A stretch of 56,141 nucleotides of DNA, from NCBI GenBank assembly GCA_035457425.1, contig DATIBR010000103.1, positions 1 through 56,141 on the forward strand. The letters run 5' to 3'. Source of the DNA: Terriglobales bacterium (GTDB lineage: Bacteria > Acidobacteriota > Terriglobia > Terriglobales > Acidobacteriaceae). Both the position numbers and the translations under genes were made by a program. Shown here piece after piece: positions 2,890 to 12,787 of this stretch (positions are counted from its first letter, which is position 1; every line of letters starts with the position of its first letter). Under the pieces are notes generated by a model. The model made no database searches. It was not told where the DNA came from and saw only the letters and a list, made by a program, of their open reading frames with translations.

Positions 2890-3684
2890 TTATCGCGGCT
2901 TCTGGTTCGCTACCGCAAGGTTGTTGGTGACGGCGAAGACGCCGGAGACGCCGTTGGCGCGGATGCCGGCGATGTTCTTGTCGCCGTCGTTCAGCACCTG
3001 GCCGGCGAGCGTGACCTTGCCGTTCTCGACGATGATGCGGATGGGCTGCTGCGGATCCATCGCATACTTCGAGAGCACCGGGTCGCCGTAGATGGCGCGC
3101 GCCACGCGGACGCGCAACTGGTCGTCCAGGATGGAGGCGGGCGAGACTTCGACGTTGTCGATGACGTCCTTCACGCCGGGCGTGTTCTCGACGATGGCCA
3201 GCGCCGACGCCTTGTCGGTGTCGGTGCGGGCGGTGCCGCCGAGGGTCACGATGCCGTTCTTCACGTCGAGCGTGAAGTTGTTGAAGGTGTTCCCGGCCGT
3301 GACGTTGCGCCCGACGCCCATGATCAGCCCCTGGTCGACGCGGTCATAGCGCAGCTTGTCGGCGAGCGTGTTGTAAAGCTCGTCATCGGAGACGCTGCTC
3401 GAGACTTCGAGCTTGTTGACGGTGTCGGAGACGCCCTTCACGTGCTGCGCCTTCTTCTCGGCGCGCACCTTGTCGGAGTACTTCTCCACCGACCCGGTGA
3501 GGGTGGCGACGCCGTCGGAGACGGCGACCTTCACATTCTGGAATTCCTTCTTCTTGCCGAGCTCCTGCTGGGCGGCCTGCTGCGTCTGCGCGTCGTTGCC
3601 GCCCTGCGGCAGCGCCGCGGCCGAGACCGCCAGCAGCGCCGTCACCAGCGCCGGAGCCAGGAAACGCTTCACTGTGCCCCACAT
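2890..3684 (-). CDS. Secreted multi-BON-domain protein
   Basis: Predicted periplasmic protein of 264 residues with signal peptide [20 protein letters not shown]... cleaved near ALP-QGG. Three BON-like units follow, each with the V-x-G-x-V turn: [17 protein letters not shown] (about 48-65), [16 protein letters not shown] (about 137-152) and [16 protein letters not shown] (about 216-231). BON domains (OsmY-type) bind phospholipid surfaces and stabilise envelopes under stress. ATG at 3684 has the purine-rich RBS AGAGGAGAAGGG. The gene lies downstream of tamB on the same strand but is separated by 133 bp holding two operator-like sites, and it has its own terminator, so it is probably a separately regulated envelope-stress gene (inference). 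Confidence 0.85.
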
Positions 3685-3817: not shown

Positions 3818-6800
3818 CTAGCGCTTGCGGCTGCGCAGCTTTATGTCGAAACCGACGACGCCGTTCTGGTCGCGCACCGCCACGATGGACACGTTGCGAT
3901 TGATGTTGAACTCCACCTGGATGATCTGCTGGGCGGACTGGGTGAGGTTGGTGATGTAGGTGAGCGTGACCTTGTCGGAGACCTGCTGCTCGATCGTGAC
4001 GCGGGCATTGGGGTTCGACTCGGGGCCGCCGGCCTGCGGGTCGATCTTGATCTTGGAGATGCCGAACAGCTTCTGCGCGCGCTGACTGATGGTGGCGTTG
4101 AGCGCCTGGCCGAGGATGGCGTTGGACGCCGTCTCGGTGAAGGACTGCTGCGAGGTGGGCTGGAGCACCTGCTCTTCCTGGGTGCGGCCGAGCGCGAGCA
4201 GCGCGATGATGTCGCCGGTCGGCAGCGGCGGATCGGAGTGGTAGGTGGTGCTCAGCTTGTCGAGCGTGCCGTGGAAGCCGAGGGTGATGTCGTACTCGCG
4301 CACGCGCGCGCTGGCTTCGATGTTCAGCACGGGCTCGATGCGAACGGGATTGGTGAGGGTGATGTCGCCGCGCTCCAGGTGGTACTTGGTGGAATTGAAG
4401 AAGACGTCGCCCTGGATGACGTTGACCTTGCCGAGGATCACGGGGTGCGCCGCCGTCCCGCGCAGGTGAAGGTCCACGTTGCCGGAGACCTTGGCCAGAG
4501 AGGTCTCGACTTGGAGCTCGGGGGTGGAGACGATGTGGACGTCGAAGCGCAGGTTGTTGAGGGGCGAATCGGGCTTCGGCATGGCGGGCGGCTGCTTGGA
4601 GCGCGCCAGATAGAGGGCGAAGTCGAAGCGCGGGTTCAGGCCGAAGCGCGTGACGGTGACGTCGCCGGAGAGCAGCGAGTTGGCGGTGGTGCCGACGAAG
4701 CGGAGGTCGGCGTTGGCGAGGGCGCTGACGCCAGGCGGATAGCGCAGGCGGATGTCGCCGCTGTGCGCGGAGAGGTTGAAGTAGATGCCGTTGGCGTAGC
4801 TGATGAAGCCGCCGAGCTCGAGCAAGCCGCCGCCGCTCTTGGCGGTCAACTTCTCGACCTGGAGGCGGTTCTCGTTGAAGACGAGGGCGCCGTTGATGTT
4901 GGAAAGGCCATTGGGCAGGTCGATGAAGGAGATGCCAGCCTCGCGGATCTCGACGCGGCCCTGCATCTGGGGTTTCTGCGTGGTGCCGCGGATGTTGAGG
5001 GCGAGCGTGGTCTCGCCGTAGCCGAGCAGGTCGCGGTTGAAGGTCTGGACAAGCTTGAGGTTGACGCGGCCGTCGGCGCGGACGTCGAGTTCGTGCGCGC
5101 CGCCGATGCCGACGCTGCCCGAGGCCTGCAGGTCGGTCTGATCGCCGACGAGATGCAGGCTCTCCACACGCAGGACCTCGTTGGCCATGGCGAAGCGGAT
5201 GGGCCCCTGGTTGTTGATGCGCAGCTTCTCGATCTCGGCGGAGATCTGGTCAATGCTGCCCTGGACGGTGAGCCGCCGCCAGGACCGCAGCGGGCCGCTC
5301 ACGTCGACGGCGCCGACCATCTGCGAATGGCCGGTCACGCGGCCCTGCAGGTAGGCGCGGAGGATGGGATCGATGTCGACGTGGGCGAAGCGCAGGCGCA
5401 TCTGCGCGGGAAAGTCGCCGCGAAGGCGGACGTCGCCATCGAGCGCGAGCTCGGCGTTCTCGAGATGGGAGCGCGCGGTGAGCTTCATGTCGGGGCCGTG
5501 GGTGACCGCCGAGGCTTCCAGGTCGCCGGTCTCTTCCCCGTTGAGGACTAGGTTCCGGACCGAGAGCTTGCCGTTGATGACCGGCTCTTCCACCGTGCCC
5601 GAACCCTGCGCGGAGAAGCTGGCCACGCCCTCCACGGTGAAGCGCGGGGTCTGGAGCTGACGGAAGCCGGCGAGCTGAAAGTCGGCGCCGCGCAGGTCGA
5701 AGCGGAAGGTGTTGGCGCCGGTGTCGTAGGCGGCGTTGCCGGTGATGCGGGCGCCGTTATGGGCGAAGACGAGGTTGTTGAGCTGGGCCTCGCGGCCGGC
5801 GAGCCGCAGGTCGGCGGTGAGCGACTTGTAGGGCTCGCCGTAGATAGACCCGCCGGCGAGCTGGATCCCGCCGCCGCCGCGCATGTCGTTGCGCGTTCCG
5901 GTGACGGTGAGCGACGCGTTCAGCGTCCCGGTGACCGGGTAGTCGTAGCCGAGAAGCGTCTGAAGATCTTTCACGTCGGCGTCGCGGATGCCGAGCCGCG
6001 CCTGGAAGGCCGTGCTGTCGTTGAAGGCGCCCTTGACGAGTTGCGCGCTCGCCTCGACGTCGAGCCGCGCCTTGCCGCGCGTGAGCGTGCCCTGGCGGAT
6101 GGCGGCGAGCGATGGCGTGTATTCCACGTCGCCGACGAGCGAATCCCAGTGGACGCGCGTGCGCTGCGGCGGGGGCGCCGGGGCGCCCGCAGCGGGTTGC
6201 GCTTCCGGCGGCGGCTCGTTCTGTGACAGCACGAGGATGGTGTCGAAGTCGGTGACCTCGAGGTGGCCGGCGGCGGAGGGCTGCGCGAGCTTGCCGAAGA
6301 CGCGTCCGGTGAAGGAGGCGCGGCCGTTGACCTGGACCGGCAGCGGCCCGGTGCGATGGAGCGCGGCGAGCGCGGGCTCGAACTCGCGCAGGTCGTTGGT
6401 GTTGAGCGCCACGTTGAGCCGCGCGGTCTCGGAGCCGAACGTGCCGGCGGCATTGAGGCGCGTCGCGCGGGTCGCGAGGCTCAGTTCGGCGACCTGGATG
6501 ACCTGCGAGCGCCCTTGGTAGGCGGCGCGCACGCGGGCGTTGACCGGCAGTTGCTGCGGCGCGGGATTGGGCGGCGGAGCGACGTCGAGCGCGATGTTCG
6601 CTTCGAAGTTGCGCGGCGAGCCGAGCCACTGCAGGTCGAGCGTACCGTCGGCCGCGCCGACCGGCTGGACCTTCGAGAGCGGCAGCCTGGGGGTGGAGAG
6701 CGCGGCGGCGACCTGCGCGACGCTGATGCCGGAGAGCTTCAGGTTCGCGAGTCCGCGCTGCGGCTGGCCGGCGGTCGGCTTGGTTCTGGCGCCGGTCTTT

Positions 6801-7897
6801 TCGGCGGCCTCGGACCAGTGGAAGACGTCGGCCTGGCCGGAGAGGCGTCCGCCGTAGACCGTGCCGGTCAGGCTGCTGATGGAGATGCGGTCGCGCGTGG
6901 CGGAGTAGTTGGCGCTGGCGTTGAGGCCCGGGACTTCCATGCCGGGCTGCGCCCAGGTCACGTTCTGCAAGGTGACGCGGCCGGAGGTCGAGATGTCGGC
7001 GACGGTGTAGGTTCCCTGCCCGCCGGCAGCGAGCTTGCCGGAGCGCAGCTGCGGCGTGCGCGAGATGGCGCCGAGTTCGGCGAGGTCGAGCGAGACCTGG
7101 TAGGCGGCCTTGATGCGCGGGTCGTTGAAGTTCTCCATGCTGCCGCTGGCGTCGATGCGCGATTTCGCGGAGGCCCAGTGCAGCGCCTTGAGCTCGGCGG
7201 TCGAGCGCGCCAGGCTGAACTCGACCTGGAGGTTGGAGCGCACCGGCAGGAAGTTCGTGTAGCGCGCGTCCATCTGGCCGATCTCGAACTTTCCGTTGTA
7301 GCGCTGCGCGAACAGGTCATAGCCCATCTCCGCTTTCACATCATTGCCGGAGAAGTTGAAAGGGATGCGGTGGTCGTTGAATAGCAGCATGCCGTCGACG
7401 ATCTCGGCGTGGTCGACCTGGAGCTCGAACAGGCGCTCGACCGGCGACTTCTTGCTCTCGGTCTTGACCTTGGGGACGGGCTGGTTGGTGCTGCCGTCCG
7501 GGAAAACGATGATGTGGATGACGGGGTGCTCGATACGCACGTCGCGCAAGCCGACTTCGCGGCCGAAGAACGAGAGGATCTTGGCGCGGGCGTAAAGGCG
7601 GTCGGCGTGCGCGTAGGGGATCTCGTCGGGGCCTTCGAGGCCGTGCAGGGTGACGTCGATGGCCTCGGCCTCGAGGCGCGAGACGTTCCAGCGGAAGTGC
7701 TTCATCTCGACGCGGGCGCCGGTGACGCGTTCCAGTTCGGTGACGAGCTTGCGCCGGACAGTGTTCTGGAAGCTCGAACTGGTGAGGTAGAGCCCGGCGG
7801 CGATGACGATGGCGAACAGCGAGAAACCGATGGTCGCGCGGCGGATGAGGCGGCGGCGACGGCGGCGGCGCAAGCGCAGCTCGGCTTCCGTGCTCAT
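3818..7897 (-). CDS. tamB: TamB-like translocation/assembly module protein
   Basis: Large (1359 aa) inner-membrane-anchored protein spanning the periplasm, of the TamB/AsmA-like group implicated in phospholipid transport and outer-membrane protein assembly. Seen: a basic N-terminus (LRLRRRRRRRLIRRA), one membrane segment at about 18-40, a long beta-rich body of repeated short strands, and a C-terminal TamB (DUF490) domain with GDIIALLALGRTQEEQVLQ, TASNAILGQALN and ending VVGFDIKLRSRKR. The length is close to that of Proteobacterial TamB. Its ATG overlaps the SurA-like stop by 4 nt (ATGA) and bamA lies just beyond, so the three genes form one operon transcribed bamA to tamB. Omp85-TamB linkage is known in many diderms. 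Confidence 0.9.
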   Translation of the reverse strand: MSTEAELRLRRRRRRRLIRRATIGFSLFAIVIAAGLYLTSSSFQNTVRRKLVTELERVTGARVEMKHFRWNVSRLEAEAIDVTLHGLEGPDEIPYAHADRLYARAKILSFFGREVGLRDVRIEHPVIHIIVFPDGSTNQPVPKVKTESKKSPVERLFELQVDHAEIVDGMLLFNDHRIPFNFSGNDVKAEMGYDLFAQRYNGKFEIGQMDARYTNFLPVRSNLQVEFSLARSTAELKALHWASAKSRIDASGSMENFNDPRIKAAYQVSLDLAELGAISRTPQLRSGKLAAGGQGTYTVADISTSGRVTLQNVTWAQPGMEVPGLNASANYSATRDRISISSLTGTVYGGRLSGQADVFHWSEAAEKTGARTKPTAGQPQRGLANLKLSGISVAQVAAALSTPRLPLSKVQPVGAADGTLDLQWLGSPRNFEANIALDVAPPPNPAPQQLPVNARVRAAYQGRSQVIQVAELSLATRATRLNAAGTFGSETARLNVALNTNDLREFEPALAALHRTGPLPVQVNGRASFTGRVFGKLAQPSAAGHLEVTDFDTILVLSQNEPPPEAQPAAGAPAPPPQRTRVHWDSLVGDVEYTPSLAAIRQGTLTRGKARLDVEASAQLVKGAFNDSTAFQARLGIRDADVKDLQTLLGYDYPVTGTLNASLTVTGTRNDMRGGGGIQLAGGSIYGEPYKSLTADLRLAGREAQLNNLVFAHNGARITGNAAYDTGANTFRFDLRGADFQLAGFRQLQTPRFTVEGVASFSAQGSGTVEEPVINGKLSVRNLVLNGEETGDLEASAVTHGPDMKLTARSHLENAELALDGDVRLRGDFPAQMRLRFAHVDIDPILRAYLQGRVTGHSQMVGAVDVSGPLRSWRRLTVQGSIDQISAEIEKLRINNQGPIRFAMANEVLRVESLHLVGDQTDLQASGSVGIGGAHELDVRADGRVNLKLVQTFNRDLLGYGETTLALNIRGTTQKPQMQGRVEIREAGISFIDLPNGLSNINGALVFNENRLQVEKLTAKSGGGLLELGGFISYANGIYFNLSAHSGDIRLRYPPGVSALANADLRFVGTTANSLLSGDVTVTRFGLNPRFDFALYLARSKQPPAMPKPDSPLNNLRFDVHIVSTPELQVETSLAKVSGNVDLHLRGTAAHPVILGKVNVIQGDVFFNSTKYHLERGDITLTNPVRIEPVLNIEASARVREYDITLGFHGTLDKLSTTYHSDPPLPTGDIIALLALGRTQEEQVLQPTSQQSFTETASNAILGQALNATISQRAQKLFGISKIKIDPQAGGPESNPNARVTIEQQVSDKVTLTYITNLTQSAQQIIQVEFNINRNVSIVAVRDQNGVVGFDIKLRSRKR

Positions 7898-8574
7898 CGT
7901 GCCCTGGCCTCCGACTTCGGCGCCTTCTCCTCGAGCCGCTGGATGCGCGACTGGGTGCGCAGGTTCTTCAAGTAAGCGGTGAGGAGTTCATCGATACGCT
8001 GCTGCACCAGAAGCTCTTCGATCTGGTCCGAGATCTGCGGCAACGGGGGCGGGTTCAATCCTTTCGACCGCAACTCGGGAACAAGCGTGTCGCGGTAATA
8101 GGCTTCGACGTTGCGCGCGTCGATATGGATGCTGGGGCGGAAGCGGAGGTCGACGAAGCGCAGGATGTCGAGGTAGCCGGCGATGTGGGAGCGGACGTCG
8201 TCCTCGGTGAGGCCGTAGCTGGTGAGCAGGGAGCGCCACTGCTGGTCGTCGGCGGCGGGCGCGAGCTGGTGGCGGAGGTTGGCGACCTTGGCGTCGACCT
8301 CGGCGGCGGGGACCGGGCGGTAGGTGGTGAGGCCGATCTCCTGGAGGATGAGTTCCTGGTCGACGAGGCGATCGAGGGCGGCGTCGCACTCGGCGTCGGT
8401 GAGCGTGTTGACGGCGCGGCCGGAGGAGAGCGCTTCGAAGCGGATGGCCTCGTCCCACTGGCTGGCGAGGATGATGCCCTTGTTCACGACGACGACGACG
8501 CGGTCGAGCGTCTCGGCAGTGGCGAGCGCGCCCACGAGCAGGAGGAGCGCGAGTTGGAGACGGCGAGTCGTCAT
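7894..8574 (-). CDS. SurA N-terminal-like periplasmic chaperone without PPIase domain
   Basis: Predicted periplasmic protein of 226 residues. Signal peptide MTTRRLQLALLLLVGALATA, then LDRVVVVVNKGIILASQWDEA, the hallmark opening of SurA/PpiD N-terminal domains (LDRVVAVVNDxVIxxSE). Helical segments DAALDRLVDQELILQEIG and YGLTEDDVRSHIAGYLDILRFV follow the SurA_N pattern. The C-terminus is a helix (QISDQIEELLVQQRIDELL), and no parvulin domain is present. It sits 2 nt after bamA and overlaps tamB by 4 nt, so it is probably a chaperone delivering outer-membrane proteins to the Omp85 protein (inference). I give no gene symbol because it is only the SurA chaperone half. Confidence 0.8.
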   Translation of the reverse strand: MTTRRLQLALLLLVGALATAETLDRVVVVVNKGIILASQWDEAIRFEALSSGRAVNTLTDAECDAALDRLVDQELILQEIGLTTYRPVPAAEVDAKVANLRHQLAPAADDQQWRSLLTSYGLTEDDVRSHIAGYLDILRFVDLRFRPSIHIDARNVEAYYRDTLVPELRSKGLNPPPLPQISDQIEELLVQQRIDELLTAYLKNLRTQSRIQRLEEKAPKSEARAR

Positions 8575-8576
8575 GG

Positions 8577-11500
8577 CTAGAACGTCTGCCCGATGGAGAA
8601 GAAGAAATTGAAGTGCGACAACGTGTCCGAGCGCGTCTCGCGGCGGATCGGGAACGTCGGTGGGTTCAGGTTATACCCAAAGTCAACGCGCACGGGGCCG
8701 ATGGGGGTGCGGTAGCGGATGCCGGCGCCCAACGCCTGCGAGTTGTAGTTGAAGTCGCAGCGCGCAGTGACCGTCAGCAGCTCGCACTGGCTCTTGTGCG
8801 GCTGCGAGACGCGGAAGAGGCTGGGGAAGATGTCGCTGGCGGTGGCGAAGACGTTGCCCATGTCATGGAAGAAGACGAGGCTGAGGTTGTTCTCGACCAG
8901 CGGGAGCGGAATGGTCGGCGTGCGCAGCTCCAGGTTGTTGATGAACATGCCCTCGCCGCCGAGGGGGAAGCCGGTCTCGCGGTCGCGCGGGCCGGCCTGG
9001 TTGATGGCAAAGCCGCGGTGGGAACTCGATCCGCCGCCGAAAAAGCGCTCGGGCAGCGGGACGAATCCGGCGGGGCCGAAGGGCTTCTCGATGCCGAGGC
9101 GCGTGGAGCGCGCGAACACCCAGCGCTTCTTGTCGAAAGTGAACGCGTGGTAGGTGTTGTTCTGGATGAGGAAGCGGGAGAAGCTGGCCTCGGAGCCGAG
9201 GAACTCGGGCGCGACGCCCATGTCGGCCAGGGTGTAAGTGCCCTTGGTGGTCTCGAGAGGGTCGTCGCGCTTGTCGCGGATGTAGGTGAGGCTGGGCATG
9301 CCGATGCGCACCGGGCGCGAGAACAGCGGGATGAGGAAGGGGTCGATGACGAGCGTGCGCGGGTCGACCTTCACGCGGCGGTAGGTCATGCGATAGAGCA
9401 GGGTGGTGATCTTGCTGACCTTGTGCTCGATCTGCGCGGAGCCTTCGAGACGCTGGGCGGTGAAGGTGCGGACGTCGCGGGTGTCGTCAAAGAAGGCGGT
9501 GATGGTGAGCTTGAGGTCCTCGTTGTCGAACCAGCGCGGGGCCTCGTAGCTGAAGAGGCCGCGCTGCTGCAGGCGGCCGAAGCGGGACTTAAAGATGAGC
9601 GTGTGGTTGCGCCCCATGAAGTTGATGCGGGTGACGTCGAAGGAGACGCGGGGGCTCACACCGGTGCGGCCTTGGGGGTCGGTGGCGCCCGGCTCGGAGC
9701 CGGTGGCAATCTCGATGCCGAAGCCGTAGTTGAAGGTCCAGCGGCGGGCCTCGGTGAGCTGCAGCAGGACGTTCTTCTCGCGCGCCTCGCCGTCCGGGTT
9801 CTGGATGGCGATGTTGACCTCGTTGAAGATGCCGAGGTCGTAGAGGCGGCGCTGGGTCTCGAGCATGTCAGCCTGGCTGAGCGGCGCGCCGTTGTGCACC
9901 TGGAGCTCGCGGTCGACGACGTAGGGGCGGGTGAAATGCAGGCCGGCGATGAGGACGCGGTCGATGAAGACCGGCTGGCCTTCCACGATGCGGTAGGTGA
10001 CGTCCATGCGCTGAGGATCGCCGGGCATGGGCTTGGCTTCCGACTCGAACGAGACCTGGGGGAAGCCGTGGTCGAAGTAGTAGTTGACGATGGCGTCGCG
10101 GTCGGTGGCGACGTTGAAGTCGGAGTAGGGCTGGCCCTCGCTGGTGTTGAGCAGCTGGCGCAGCGTCTCGTCGGAGATGGAGTTGTTGCCCTCGATGGCG
10201 AGGGTGCGGACGCGCGTCTGGGGGCCTTCCTTGATGGTGAGTGTGACGCGCATGCGTCCGGTCTCGCCCTGGTAGTCGTCCTGCACGTCGCCGGTGACCT
10301 GCACGTCCTGGAACCCGTTGGAGCGGTAGAGGTCCTCGATGGAGCTGATGTCGCGCGAGAGCATGGACTGGCTGAAGCGTCCGTGGGAGAGCAGCCATCC
10401 GGCGGGCTGCAGCAGCATGCGCTCGCGGATGATGTCTTCGGGGAAGTATTCGTTCCCCTGGATGATGAGGTCGGTGAGCTTGTGGCGCTCGCCCTTCTCG
10501 ATGATGTACTCGACATGACGGTGGTCGCCCTCGGCCGGTGGCTGGCGAAAGTTGACGTCGACGTCGAAGTAGCCCTGCGTCTGGAAGTAATCGCGCAGGT
10601 TGCGGCGGCCCTCGTTGAGCAGGTCGTCGTCGACCGCGTTCTCTTCGTAGATGGGGATGTATTTCTTGAGCTTCCCCTTGCGGATCTTGGCGCCCCGCAG
10701 GTGCAGGTCGATGGTCGGGCCGCGATCGACCTGGAAGGTGTAGTCGACGGTGTTGGTGGCGAGCTGGTACTCGGAGCGCAGCAGGACGACGTCGGCCTCG
10801 AGGCGGTCCTTCTTGTTGTACTTCTTGCGCAAGCGGTCCATGGCGCGCTGCGCCTTGCCGCTGGTCACCTTGTCGCCGGTGTAGAGCTGCGAGATCGAGA
10901 CCATCTCGGCAGGGGTGTAACCGAAATCGCCCTGGAAAACGACGGCGCCCACGCGGGCGCGCTCCCCGGCCGTGATGTGGAAGAGCAGGTCGACCTGCTG
11001 CGTCTCGGGATGGCGCTGCTCCTCGGCCGCGACCTCGGACTGGAAGAATCCCTGGTCGCGCAAGACGTTCTTGATGCCGTCGATCGCGGTGGCGATCTTT
11101 TCCGGCAACAGCAGCTCGCCCAGATCGAGCTTAGTGGCGTTGCGGAGCTGGCTGTCGGTGGGCCCGTAGCGCGGGATGCCGGACATCCGGATCCACCCGA
11201 TGAAGTAGTTGGGCTCGCCGACGAAGGTGAGGTCGACTTCGCCCGTCGCGGTGCGCTCCGCGTCCACGTGGACCTCGGCGAAGCGGCCGGTGGCGTGCAG
11301 CGCCTGGATGCTGCGGCGGACCTTGTTGCGGTCCAGGGGCTGGCCGACTTCCTGGACTACGCGCTCGCGTAGGCGCGGCTCATCCGGGATGGCGCCGGCG
11401 AAACGGATCTCGTGGACCCGCAGCCCGCTGAAACGCGCGAGCGCGGAGAACTCCGCGATGTGAGTCTGGGAGGGCTGCGCCGGCGTGGAGTGCGGTGGGG

Positions 11501-11702
11501 GCGGGGCGGTCTGGGCGAGCGCGGGCGCGCCGGCGCACACCAGCGCCAGCAGCCACAGCCACGTGCGAAGTCTCTGGGAGATCGCTTTCAGCGCCGCCAA
11601 TATTGTCTTGTCGCCCTTCGCAGTCGTGTTCAGGCGTCGGATCCAGGTCCCGGGTGCACGAATAGACGAGAGAGACCGACCAGCGGCGGCAGGCCCGGCC
11701 AT
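8577..11702 (-). CDS. bamA: Omp85-family outer-membrane assembly protein (BamA/TamA-like) with seven POTRA units
   Basis: Outer-membrane insertase of up to 1041 residues. A signal peptide at about 46-64 ends APALA-Q. Then come seven POTRA-like repeats, each starting with a beta-strand plus Gly: LRVHEIRFAG (94), FIGWIRMSG (167), RVGAVVFQGD (250), TIDLHLRGAKI (330), KLTDLIIQGNEYF (408), RVRTLAIEGNNSIS (497) and FIDRVLIAGLHFT (579). The beta-barrel runs from about 655 and ends FFFSIGQTF with the terminal Phe of outer-membrane proteins. E. coli BamA has five and TamA three POTRA units. The longest frame starts at ATG 11702. A TTG at 11600, much closer to the signal peptide, is an equally plausible start. 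First gene of the bamA/SurA-like/tamB operon, divergent from the E1-like gene. Confidence 0.9.
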   Translation of the reverse strand: MAGPAAAGRSLSSIRAPGTWIRRLNTTAKGDKTILAALKAISQRLRTWLWLLALVCAGAPALAQTAPPPPHSTPAQPSQTHIAEFSALARFSGLRVHEIRFAGAIPDEPRLRERVVQEVGQPLDRNKVRRSIQALHATGRFAEVHVDAERTATGEVDLTFVGEPNYFIGWIRMSGIPRYGPTDSQLRNATKLDLGELLLPEKIATAIDGIKNVLRDQGFFQSEVAAEEQRHPETQQVDLLFHITAGERARVGAVVFQGDFGYTPAEMVSISQLYTGDKVTSGKAQRAMDRLRKKYNKKDRLEADVVLLRSEYQLATNTVDYTFQVDRGPTIDLHLRGAKIRKGKLKKYIPIYEENAVDDDLLNEGRRNLRDYFQTQGYFDVDVNFRQPPAEGDHRHVEYIIEKGERHKLTDLIIQGNEYFPEDIIRERMLLQPAGWLLSHGRFSQSMLSRDISSIEDLYRSNGFQDVQVTGDVQDDYQGETGRMRVTLTIKEGPQTRVRTLAIEGNNSISDETLRQLLNTSEGQPYSDFNVATDRDAIVNYYFDHGFPQVSFESEAKPMPGDPQRMDVTYRIVEGQPVFIDRVLIAGLHFTRPYVVDRELQVHNGAPLSQADMLETQRRLYDLGIFNEVNIAIQNPDGEAREKNVLLQLTEARRWTFNYGFGIEIATGSEPGATDPQGRTGVSPRVSFDVTRINFMGRNHTLIFKSRFGRLQQRGLFSYEAPRWFDNEDLKLTITAFFDDTRDVRTFTAQRLEGSAQIEHKVSKITTLLYRMTYRRVKVDPRTLVIDPFLIPLFSRPVRIGMPSLTYIRDKRDDPLETTKGTYTLADMGVAPEFLGSEASFSRFLIQNNTYHAFTFDKKRWVFARSTRLGIEKPFGPAGFVPLPERFFGGGSSSHRGFAINQAGPRDRETGFPLGGEGMFINNLELRTPTIPLPLVENNLSLVFFHDMGNVFATASDIFPSLFRVSQPHKSQCELLTVTARCDFNYNSQALGAGIRYRTPIGPVRVDFGYNLNPPTFPIRRETRSDTLSHFNFFFSIGQTF

Positions 11703-11739: not shown

Positions 11740-11770
11740 TTGCCCTTTGCCGATTCGGAAATCCTCGACC

Positions 11771-12787
11771 GTGGACCCGACCGAACGTTATTCCCGCCAG
11801 TTGCTGTTCCGCCCCCTCGGGGCGGAAGGCCAGCGCAAGCTGGCTGCCGGCCGTGTCGCGGTGGTTGGATGCGGGGCGACCGGCTCCGCGGTGGCTGCGC
11901 TGCTGGCGCGCGCGGGGGTGGGCACGCTGCGCATCATCGACCGCGACTACGTGGAACCCAGCAACCTGCAGCGGCAGGTGCTGTTCGACGAGCACGACGC
12001 CGCCGAGTCGCTGCCCAAGGCGATCGCCGCGGCGCGGAAGATCGCGGCGTTCAACAGCGACATCGTCGTCGAACCCCACGTCGCCGACCTCACGCCGGCC
12101 AACGTGCGCGAGCTGCTCGGCGAGAGCGATCTCGTGCTCGACGCCACCGATAACTTCGAGACGCGCTACCTGGTGAATGACTACTGCGTGGAGCAAGGCC
12201 GTCCGTGGATCTATGCGGCGGCCGTGGGCAGTTACGGCGTGACCATGAACATCGTGCCGGGCGAAACGGCGTGCCTGGCCTGCGTCTTCCCTGCTCCGCC
12301 GCGGGGCGTGGTCGAGACCTGCGACACTTCCGGCATCCTGAACTCGGCGGCCAACCTGGTGGCGTCGCTCGAGGCCACCGAGGCGCTCAAGTTCCTGGTG
12401 GGGGCGCGGGACCAGGTGCGGCGCACGCTGCTCTCGTTCGACGTGTGGACGAATGAGCGCTCCGAGATCTCCGCCGGGAAGCCGAGGCCGGATTGCCGCG
12501 CGTGCGGCGAGCGCGATTTCGTCCACCTGGCCGGCGAGTCGCGGCCGCAGATCACGCTGTGCGGCCGGAACTCCGTGCAGATCCACGAGCGGCAGCGCCC
12601 GGTGGACTTCGAAGAGATGAAGCTCCGCCTGGAGCCGCATGGCCAGGTCCGGCACAACGACTTCGTGCTGAAGTTCTTCCGCGCGCCGTACGAGCTGACG
12701 CTGTTCCCCGACGGCCGCGCCATCATCAAGGGCACCACCGACACCGCGGTGGCACGCTCGCTGTATGCGCGATTTATCGGGTCGTAA
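11771..12787 (+). CDS. ThiF/MoeB/HesA-family adenylyltransferase (E1-like)
   Basis: ATP-dependent enzyme that adenylates the C-terminal Gly of a ubiquitin-like sulfur carrier (ThiS or MoaD), 338 residues. Seen: family opening TERYSRQLLFRPLG; nucleotide-binding VAVVGCGATGSAVAALLARAG; DRDYVEPSNLQRQVLF; DATDNFETRYLVND; conserved ETCDTSGILN with the Cys; and two CXXC pairs, CLAC and CRAC, that would hold structural zinc. The last 90 residues form an extra small domain not found in minimal MoeB. I chose GTG 11771 (VDPTERYSRQ) from family N-termini. A TTG at 11747 would add eight residues. It may serve thiazole (thiG is at 32.3 kb) or molybdopterin synthesis, and the sequence alone does not decide. 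Confidence 0.85.
   Translation: MDPTERYSRQLLFRPLGAEGQRKLAAGRVAVVGCGATGSAVAALLARAGVGTLRIIDRDYVEPSNLQRQVLFDEHDAAESLPKAIAAARKIAAFNSDIVVEPHVADLTPANVRELLGESDLVLDATDNFETRYLVNDYCVEQGRPWIYAAAVGSYGVTMNIVPGETACLACVFPAPPRGVVETCDTSGILNSAANLVASLEATEALKFLVGARDQVRRTLLSFDVWTNERSEISAGKPRPDCRACGERDFVHLAGESRPQITLCGRNSVQIHERQRPVDFEEMKLRLEPHGQVRHNDFVLKFFRAPYELTLFPDGRAIIKGTTDTAVARSLYARFIGS

Follow-up and report, generated by a model that had tools for sequence, protein, structure and literature searches.

A probable TAM-type operon in Acidobacteriota, encoding a seven-POTRA Omp85 protein, a SurA core and TamB, and its natural TamB-Omp85 fusions

Introduction

The DNA considered here is a window of 56,141 nucleotides (the whole stretch that was analysed; contig DATIBR010000103.1 of assembly GCA_035457425.1, a Terriglobales bacterium of the Acidobacteriota). 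On its minus strand three genes lie head to tail, in the order omp85, a gene for a SurA-like protein, and tamB. There is a gap of 2 nucleotides between the first two and an overlap of 4 nucleotides between the last two, and the open reading frames match exactly the order and spacing given in an earlier, sequence-only reading of the window. The Omp85 protein has seven POTRA domains, which fits neither BamA (five) nor TamA (three). The question that this locus raises is whether the three genes form a merged Bam/Tam system, or a system of the translocation and assembly module (TAM) type, separate from the β-barrel assembly machinery (BAM). A TAM-type operon is, we believe, very probably the correct reading.

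Some of this has been published before. Heinz et al. (2015; PMC4494059) described second copies of BamA in Acidobacteria, some of them with seven POTRAs, and also acidobacterial BamA-TamB operons. The sequence-only reading called the POTRA count and the pairing with TamB of interest rather than unprecedented, and both are indeed already in print for this phylum. Its comparison with deltaproteobacterial proteins was the wrong frame: the host is an acidobacterium, and 79 of the 80 best named Omp85 matches carry acidobacterial names (that is, genus names which we take to be acidobacterial). The nearest named relative is a metagenome-assembled genome of Candidatus Korobacter versatilis, with 69% identity over the aligned Omp85.

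The proteins of the operon

Pfam identifies seven POTRA stretches in the Omp85 protein (222.8 bits, against a cut-off of 21.3), together with an Omp85 barrel, and a six-frame search of the whole genome found the same seven POTRAs, at 9759-11420. The AlphaFold2 model, built from 58 sequences, has a mean predicted local distance difference test score (pLDDT) of 85.2. It shows seven β-α-α-β-β units over residues 95-651, and after them a barrel in which we count 16 strands. The sequence-only reading had counted seven POTRAs, and had looked to structure prediction for at least six POTRA folds; seven are found by all three routes. The true start of the gene may differ from the ATG at 11702, there being a TTG at 11600 just before the predicted signal helix (residues 33-53). 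The structural neighbours of the model are BamA, Sam50 and TamA. A subfamily call using VIA-align was set aside as non-discriminating, because Sam50 chains ranked first and those of BamA and TamA followed by no more than a few Z units.

The Pfam match of the middle protein to SurA lies below the cut-offs (22.6 bits against 27.2), and Pfam gives no match to a rotamase, or peptidyl-prolyl isomerase (PPIase), domain. The model has a mean pLDDT of 93.6, and the PDB entries that match it best are SurA chains, mostly from complexes with BAM. The top match is 8pzv_F, with a Z score of 14.6 and a root mean square deviation of 3.1 over 170 aligned residues. The alignment covers SurA residues 25 to 426 but skips the PPIase domains, and the stretch at the PPIase site (residues 144-185) is only 40-44 letters long in all 76 aligned relatives. 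Because of these two features, and because rotamase proteins are encoded elsewhere in the genome, the protein as modelled is the N+C core of SurA alone. It begins with a hydrophobic stretch that by eye resembles a signal peptide. The earlier label of a SurA-like chaperone thus holds for the fold, but needs a qualifier for the missing PPIase domains. E. coli SurA has the same core fold and is found bound to BAM; the window protein differs from it in lacking the PPIase domains, and in that its gene is tied to one Omp85.

The third protein (P0003) passes the Pfam TamB model PF04357 with 140.7 bits (cut-off 22.4), which upholds its naming as TamB. It also matches the AsmA-like DUF748 and YhdP models. 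Its N-terminus has an arginine-rich start followed by a hydrophobic stretch, by eye a possible signal anchor. Within its own genome, TamB matches above the cut-off occur only at the window locus.

A separate BAM in the same genome

The genome also encodes a separate BamA of 955 amino acids with five POTRAs, on contig C192, and an OmpH/Skp gene lies in the same fetched stretch. Rotamase matches occur in four frames elsewhere, of which one encodes a protein combining SurA_N with Rotamase; a BamD-like protein is also encoded. The best reading is that the operon works beside a normal BAM. The sequence-only reading had also proposed to look for a separate bamA and a separate tamA. The former is the gene on C192; no separate TamA was seen in the genome, where the sole other Omp85 barrel (contig C99) has no POTRA match. 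This third barrel lies in a frame of 539 codons (L016).

The C192 BamA was used as a query against 25 genomes, and in all 25 a copy was found apart from the TamB locus. By our own profile, 21 of 24 of these BamA frames have five POTRAs, the remaining three having three, four and six; the 25th copy (L286) is a fragment and falls outside this count.

Phylogenetic position of the Omp85

A tree was made from 55 chosen Omp85 C-terminal parts (12 BamA, 17 of the seven-POTRA type, 16 of the 31 TamB-Omp85 fusions described below, and 10 TamA-type), and rooted on BamA. The BamA sequences form a clade with support 100/100, in which the C192 copy is found with E. coli BamA. E. coli TamA and nine acidobacterial TamA-type proteins form another (100/98), while the seven-POTRA proteins and the fusions have a clade of their own (100/100). 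The window Omp85 is outside both the BamA and the TamA clades, and under the BamA root its clade is the sister of TamA. An earlier tree had no TamA-type rows, and L234 and L235 (divergent fusions) and L238 were left out of it for their long branches. It gave a BamA split with support 98/89, again with the C192 copy beside E. coli BamA and the window protein on the other side. On these trees the window Omp85 is a member of a third clade, neither BamA nor TamA proper, and nearer to TamA than to BamA. Position next to tamB, which is used to recognise TamA, also describes the window gene, with only the SurA-core gene in between.

The nine acidobacterial TamA-type genes (L339-L347) adjoin a separate tamB. 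They are called TamA-type on the basis of the tree and of where the match to our Omp85 profile starts (at POTRA 5 in eight of nine), and the profile detects one to three POTRAs in them. A SurA core was found near none of these nine loci. One genome (G181) seems to have a TamA-type locus in addition to a SurA-core locus with TamB.

Conservation of the gene cluster

Neighbourhood sets picked by a SurA match are biased, and pairing was therefore tested only on sets picked by Omp85 or by TamB. The Omp85-picked set consists of the best 80 named loci. A SurA core is present in 79 of these, the sole miss being at a contig end, and TamB in 76; the POTRA count is seven in 74 loci, six in five and five in one. 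One locus with an acidobacterial triad (L158) comes from a record titled Rhodanobacteraceae, which is probably a wrongly binned or wrongly named metagenome-assembled genome. The TamB-picked set has ten unfused loci, nine of which are the top unfused matches and one of which (L348) is from lower down.

In a set of 52 loci chosen for their SurA core, the window included, Omp85 is adjacent in every case and TamB is present in 51, the miss again being at a contig end. Our own profile finds seven POTRAs in one frame in 46 of them. Three further loci (L100-L102) were dropped from this count, having matched only through a PPIase-bearing SurA. At L102 this SurA gene is divergent to a seven-POTRA omp85, which precedes a TamB match.

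In other families, 20 SurA-core-picked regions were compared. The order is tamB-omp85-sur in 15 (one with a 1.7-kb gap) and omp85-sur-tamB in one; three have the SurA core alone, and one has just an Omp85 fragment. Genes around the lone SurA cores (L219, L224, L227) include hrcA and EPSP-synthase genes. A phylum-wide count by SurA profile (180 of 199 genomes) was not used, because many of its matches end at the N domain in longer frames.

As judged from these gene neighbourhoods, the triad is co-encoded across the class and, with its genes arranged differently, in other families of the phylum as well, and its partners stay together despite the changes of order.

Natural TamB-Omp85 fusions

In three genomes TamB and Omp85 were first found in one frame, and Pfam confirms TamB, POTRA and Omp85 within one protein. 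A phylum sample of 297 genomes, 262 of them with TamB, contains at least 30 TamB frames that are 1900 codons or longer. By our own profiles 28 of the 30 listed are fusions, and four of these 28 were checked with Pfam. Together with the first three, the acidobacterial fusions among the matches listed number 31, in frames of 1940-2477 codons, always with TamB first. L249 and L253 were rejected as fusions on account of one in-frame stop between tamB and omp85. In these two genomes, which belong to one family, tamB and omp85 share a frame that only the stop interrupts (TAA at L249:4629-4631 and TAG at L253:4621-4623). L231 was also rejected: it has a long open frame, but the TamB match is in another frame.

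Hydropathy was checked in 21 fusions. In 18 of them the N-terminus has a strongly hydrophobic stretch, with a mean above 2 over 19 residues; two have a weaker one, and one is cut by the end of its contig. None of the 21 has a hydrophobic stretch above 1.5 at the junction of TamB and Omp85, so that the Omp85 part seems to be without a signal peptide of its own.

The profile match of the Omp85 part starts at POTRA 3 in 22 of the 31 fusions (meaning model position 182-201, with POTRA 3 beginning at 190), at POTRA 4 in three and at POTRA 1 in one (L259), five being unassigned. No SurA core is found in the fetched flanks of any of the 31, three of which have a downstream flank shorter than 1 kb. 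Twenty fusion-bearing genomes were searched throughout for a full-length SurA core, and four have one (G099, G068, G341 and G092); in G099 and G068 there is, besides, an Omp85 that retains POTRA 1-2. Changes between the fused and unfused states number at least three, as forced by the earlier tree, at least two in the 55-row tree, and three to four in bootstraps of both.

A model for the operon

We hypothesise that the three proteins make up a trans-envelope machine of the TAM type, active alongside a normal BAM, and taken as a whole this proposal is likely. TamB would be anchored in the inner membrane, with its C-terminal end meeting the POTRA arm, and clients and/or lipids would move over one continuous bridge to the barrel, which would form the outer-membrane end. 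Less surely, the SurA core may dock on POTRA 1-2 and pass unfolded outer-membrane proteins to the machine, and the extra POTRAs and the SurA core may form one detachable loading module. Such a module is suggested because most fusion loci lack both POTRA 1-2 and a SurA-core gene alongside. POTRA 1-2 are proposed as the receiver of the SurA core because the core lies beside the seven-POTRA type in 79 of 80 loci and is absent beside the fusions and beside all nine TamA-type loci. The dock on POTRA 1-2 may be likened to the docking of E. coli SurA on BamA in the solved BAM complexes whose SurA chains lead the fold search with the middle protein. We put this dock forward tentatively, as something short of an even chance. 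It is similarly tentative that the third Omp85 lineage exists in a modular form, where POTRA 1-2 and the SurA core link chaperone, TamB and barrel, and in a single-chain form, a protein of about 2000 residues in which TamB runs into POTRA 3 and which would reach across from the inner to the outer membrane, and that repeated switching removed POTRA 1-2 and the SurA core together.

Several observations weigh against this scheme. The NCBI equivalog models for both TAM proteins reject those of the window, NF047952 giving 62.8 bits for TamB against a cut-off of 825, and NF047950 giving 76.7 bits for the Omp85 against a TamA cut-off of 625. The NCBI BamA model TIGR03303 accepts the Omp85, with 363.9 bits for a cut-off of 297.15, as compared with 461.1 for the C192 BamA. 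The SurA cores of L219, L224 and L227 have neither Omp85 nor TamB nearby. Finally, G341 and G092 keep a SurA core, and only fusions without POTRA 1-2 were seen in them.

The alternative that survives best, although we regard it as unlikely, is that POTRA 1-2 dock TamB and not the SurA core; a fused protein would then have no need of the dock, and loss of the SurA core would have had another reason. The start of most Omp85 parts at POTRA 3 is what such a dock would lead one to expect, and in Borrelia the DUF490 domain of TamB binds POTRA 2 and 3 of BamA (PMC11361582). It is less easily squared with the nine TamA-type loci, which pair with a separate tamB and have neither POTRA 1-2 nor a SurA core, or with the only fusion that keeps seven POTRAs (L259), whose genome (G099) keeps the SurA core.

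A more doubtful proposal is that the machine moves phospholipid and not protein, with TamB as a lipid bridge, the Omp85 as its outer-membrane end, and a SurA core that only folds the Omp85 or holds its arm. Mutations in tamB suppress the mla lipid defects of Veillonella, an organism in which a bridge made of a single-chain MlaD has been proposed (PMC10665443); the matches of the window TamB to DUF748 and YhdP also point this way. Against this, TAM catalyses the assembly of outer-membrane proteins in vitro (PMC11341756), and a SurA core in the operon suits protein clients better.

It is improbable that the Omp85 is just a spare BamA paralogue, co-regulated with tamB and forming no joint complex. 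Operon linkage by itself is no proof of contact, and Heinz et al. (PMC4494059) mention such a case as possible for BamA-TamB operons, but in 31 cases TamB is fused to an Omp85 of the very clade to which the window protein belongs.

Least probable of all is the combined Bam/Tam system that the sequence-only reading suggested, with the window Omp85 as the main insertase of the cell, having its own SurA and TamB: for all the tightness of the operon, the name BamA given by TIGR03303 and the hybrid BAM-TAM proposed for Borrelia with its one BamA (PMC13382580), it is rejected because a canonical set exists in the genome, namely the higher-scoring five-POTRA BamA on C192, grouping with E. coli BamA and with Skp nearby, and the SurA-type and BamD-like genes sited elsewhere.

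Features of the locus

The coordinates are collected in Table 1. Downstream of tamB there is a gene for a protein with three BON domains, and a UbiA gene. Of the 64 loci with room for this check, 24 have a BON gene no more than 1.5 kb downstream of tamB, and the BON protein was on this ground rejected as a fixed part of the operon.

Table 1. Features of the operon and its surroundings in the window, and loci of the fusions.
Feature	Position (strand)	Size or residues	Basis or remark
omp85 gene, seven POTRAs and barrel	8577..11702 (-)	1041 codons	Open reading frame, Pfam, model
POTRA 1 and 2	10971..11420 (-)	residues 95-244	Model, profile positions
POTRA 3 to 7	9750..10955 (-)	residues 250-651	Model, Pfam
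Barrel	8592..9740 (-)	residues 655-1037	Pfam, model
SurA N+C core gene, without PPIase domains	7894..8574 (-)	226 codons	Open reading frame, Pfam, fold
tamB	3818..7897 (-)	1359 codons	Open reading frame, Pfam
Three-BON-domain protein gene	2890..3684 (-)		Downstream neighbour of tamB
ThiF-family gene	11747..12787 (+)		Divergent; upstream border of the operon
TamB-Omp85 fusions			Other acidobacterial genomes: L233, L234, L235, L240-L248, L250-L252, L254-L259, L329-L338

Relation to known systems

The closest known system is the acidobacterial second BamA of Heinz et al. (PMC4494059), which agrees in phylum, in being a second copy, in the seven POTRAs of some members, in the TamB operon and in its closeness to TamA. 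The present trees differ in adding acidobacterial TamA-type proteins, which form a separate clade. The words SurA, chaperone, fusion and fused have zero occurrences in the searched main text of that paper.

The proteobacterial TAM also has its Omp85 gene beside tamB and falls on the same side of the tree, but the window Omp85 has seven POTRAs where TamA has three, is accompanied by an additional gene for a SurA core, and belongs to a separate clade. The BamA-TamB hybrid of Borrelia likewise pairs TamB with an Omp85 of more than three POTRAs (PMC13382580, PMC11361582); however, Borrelia employs its BamA for this, whereas the window genome has a separate one. The elongated MlaD of Veillonella shares with the fusions the idea of a single polypeptide that would start at the inner membrane and reach a barrel in the outer one (PMC10665443). 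It is an unrelated protein with an MCE domain, and the window's own proteins are unfused.

A search of titles and the openings of abstracts found neither a TamB-Omp85 fusion nor a SurA gene in the operon, though this is weak evidence of novelty, most subscription papers being outside its reach. Word searches of PMC13382580 (fusion and SurA-gene words) and of PMC13067283 (TamB and fusion) also gave no TamB-Omp85 fusion or operon SurA gene. The pairing of a seven-POTRA Omp85 with TamB is real and mostly known; what appears to be undescribed is the SurA core dedicated to this Omp85, together with the natural fusions.

Significance

A practical consequence is that automatic annotation with TIGR03303 will mislabel the window Omp85 as BamA. 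The locus bears on the question whether TamB and its Omp85 partner make one continuous periplasmic path. The fusions show a covalent tie between the two, and offer a single-chain target for structural work. A SurA core free of PPIase domains would amount to a minimal chaperone that serves a single insertase, and a role of the extra POTRAs could be tested by simple binding assays. Together, the SurA core and the fusions open the contact between TamB and its Omp85 to direct tests.

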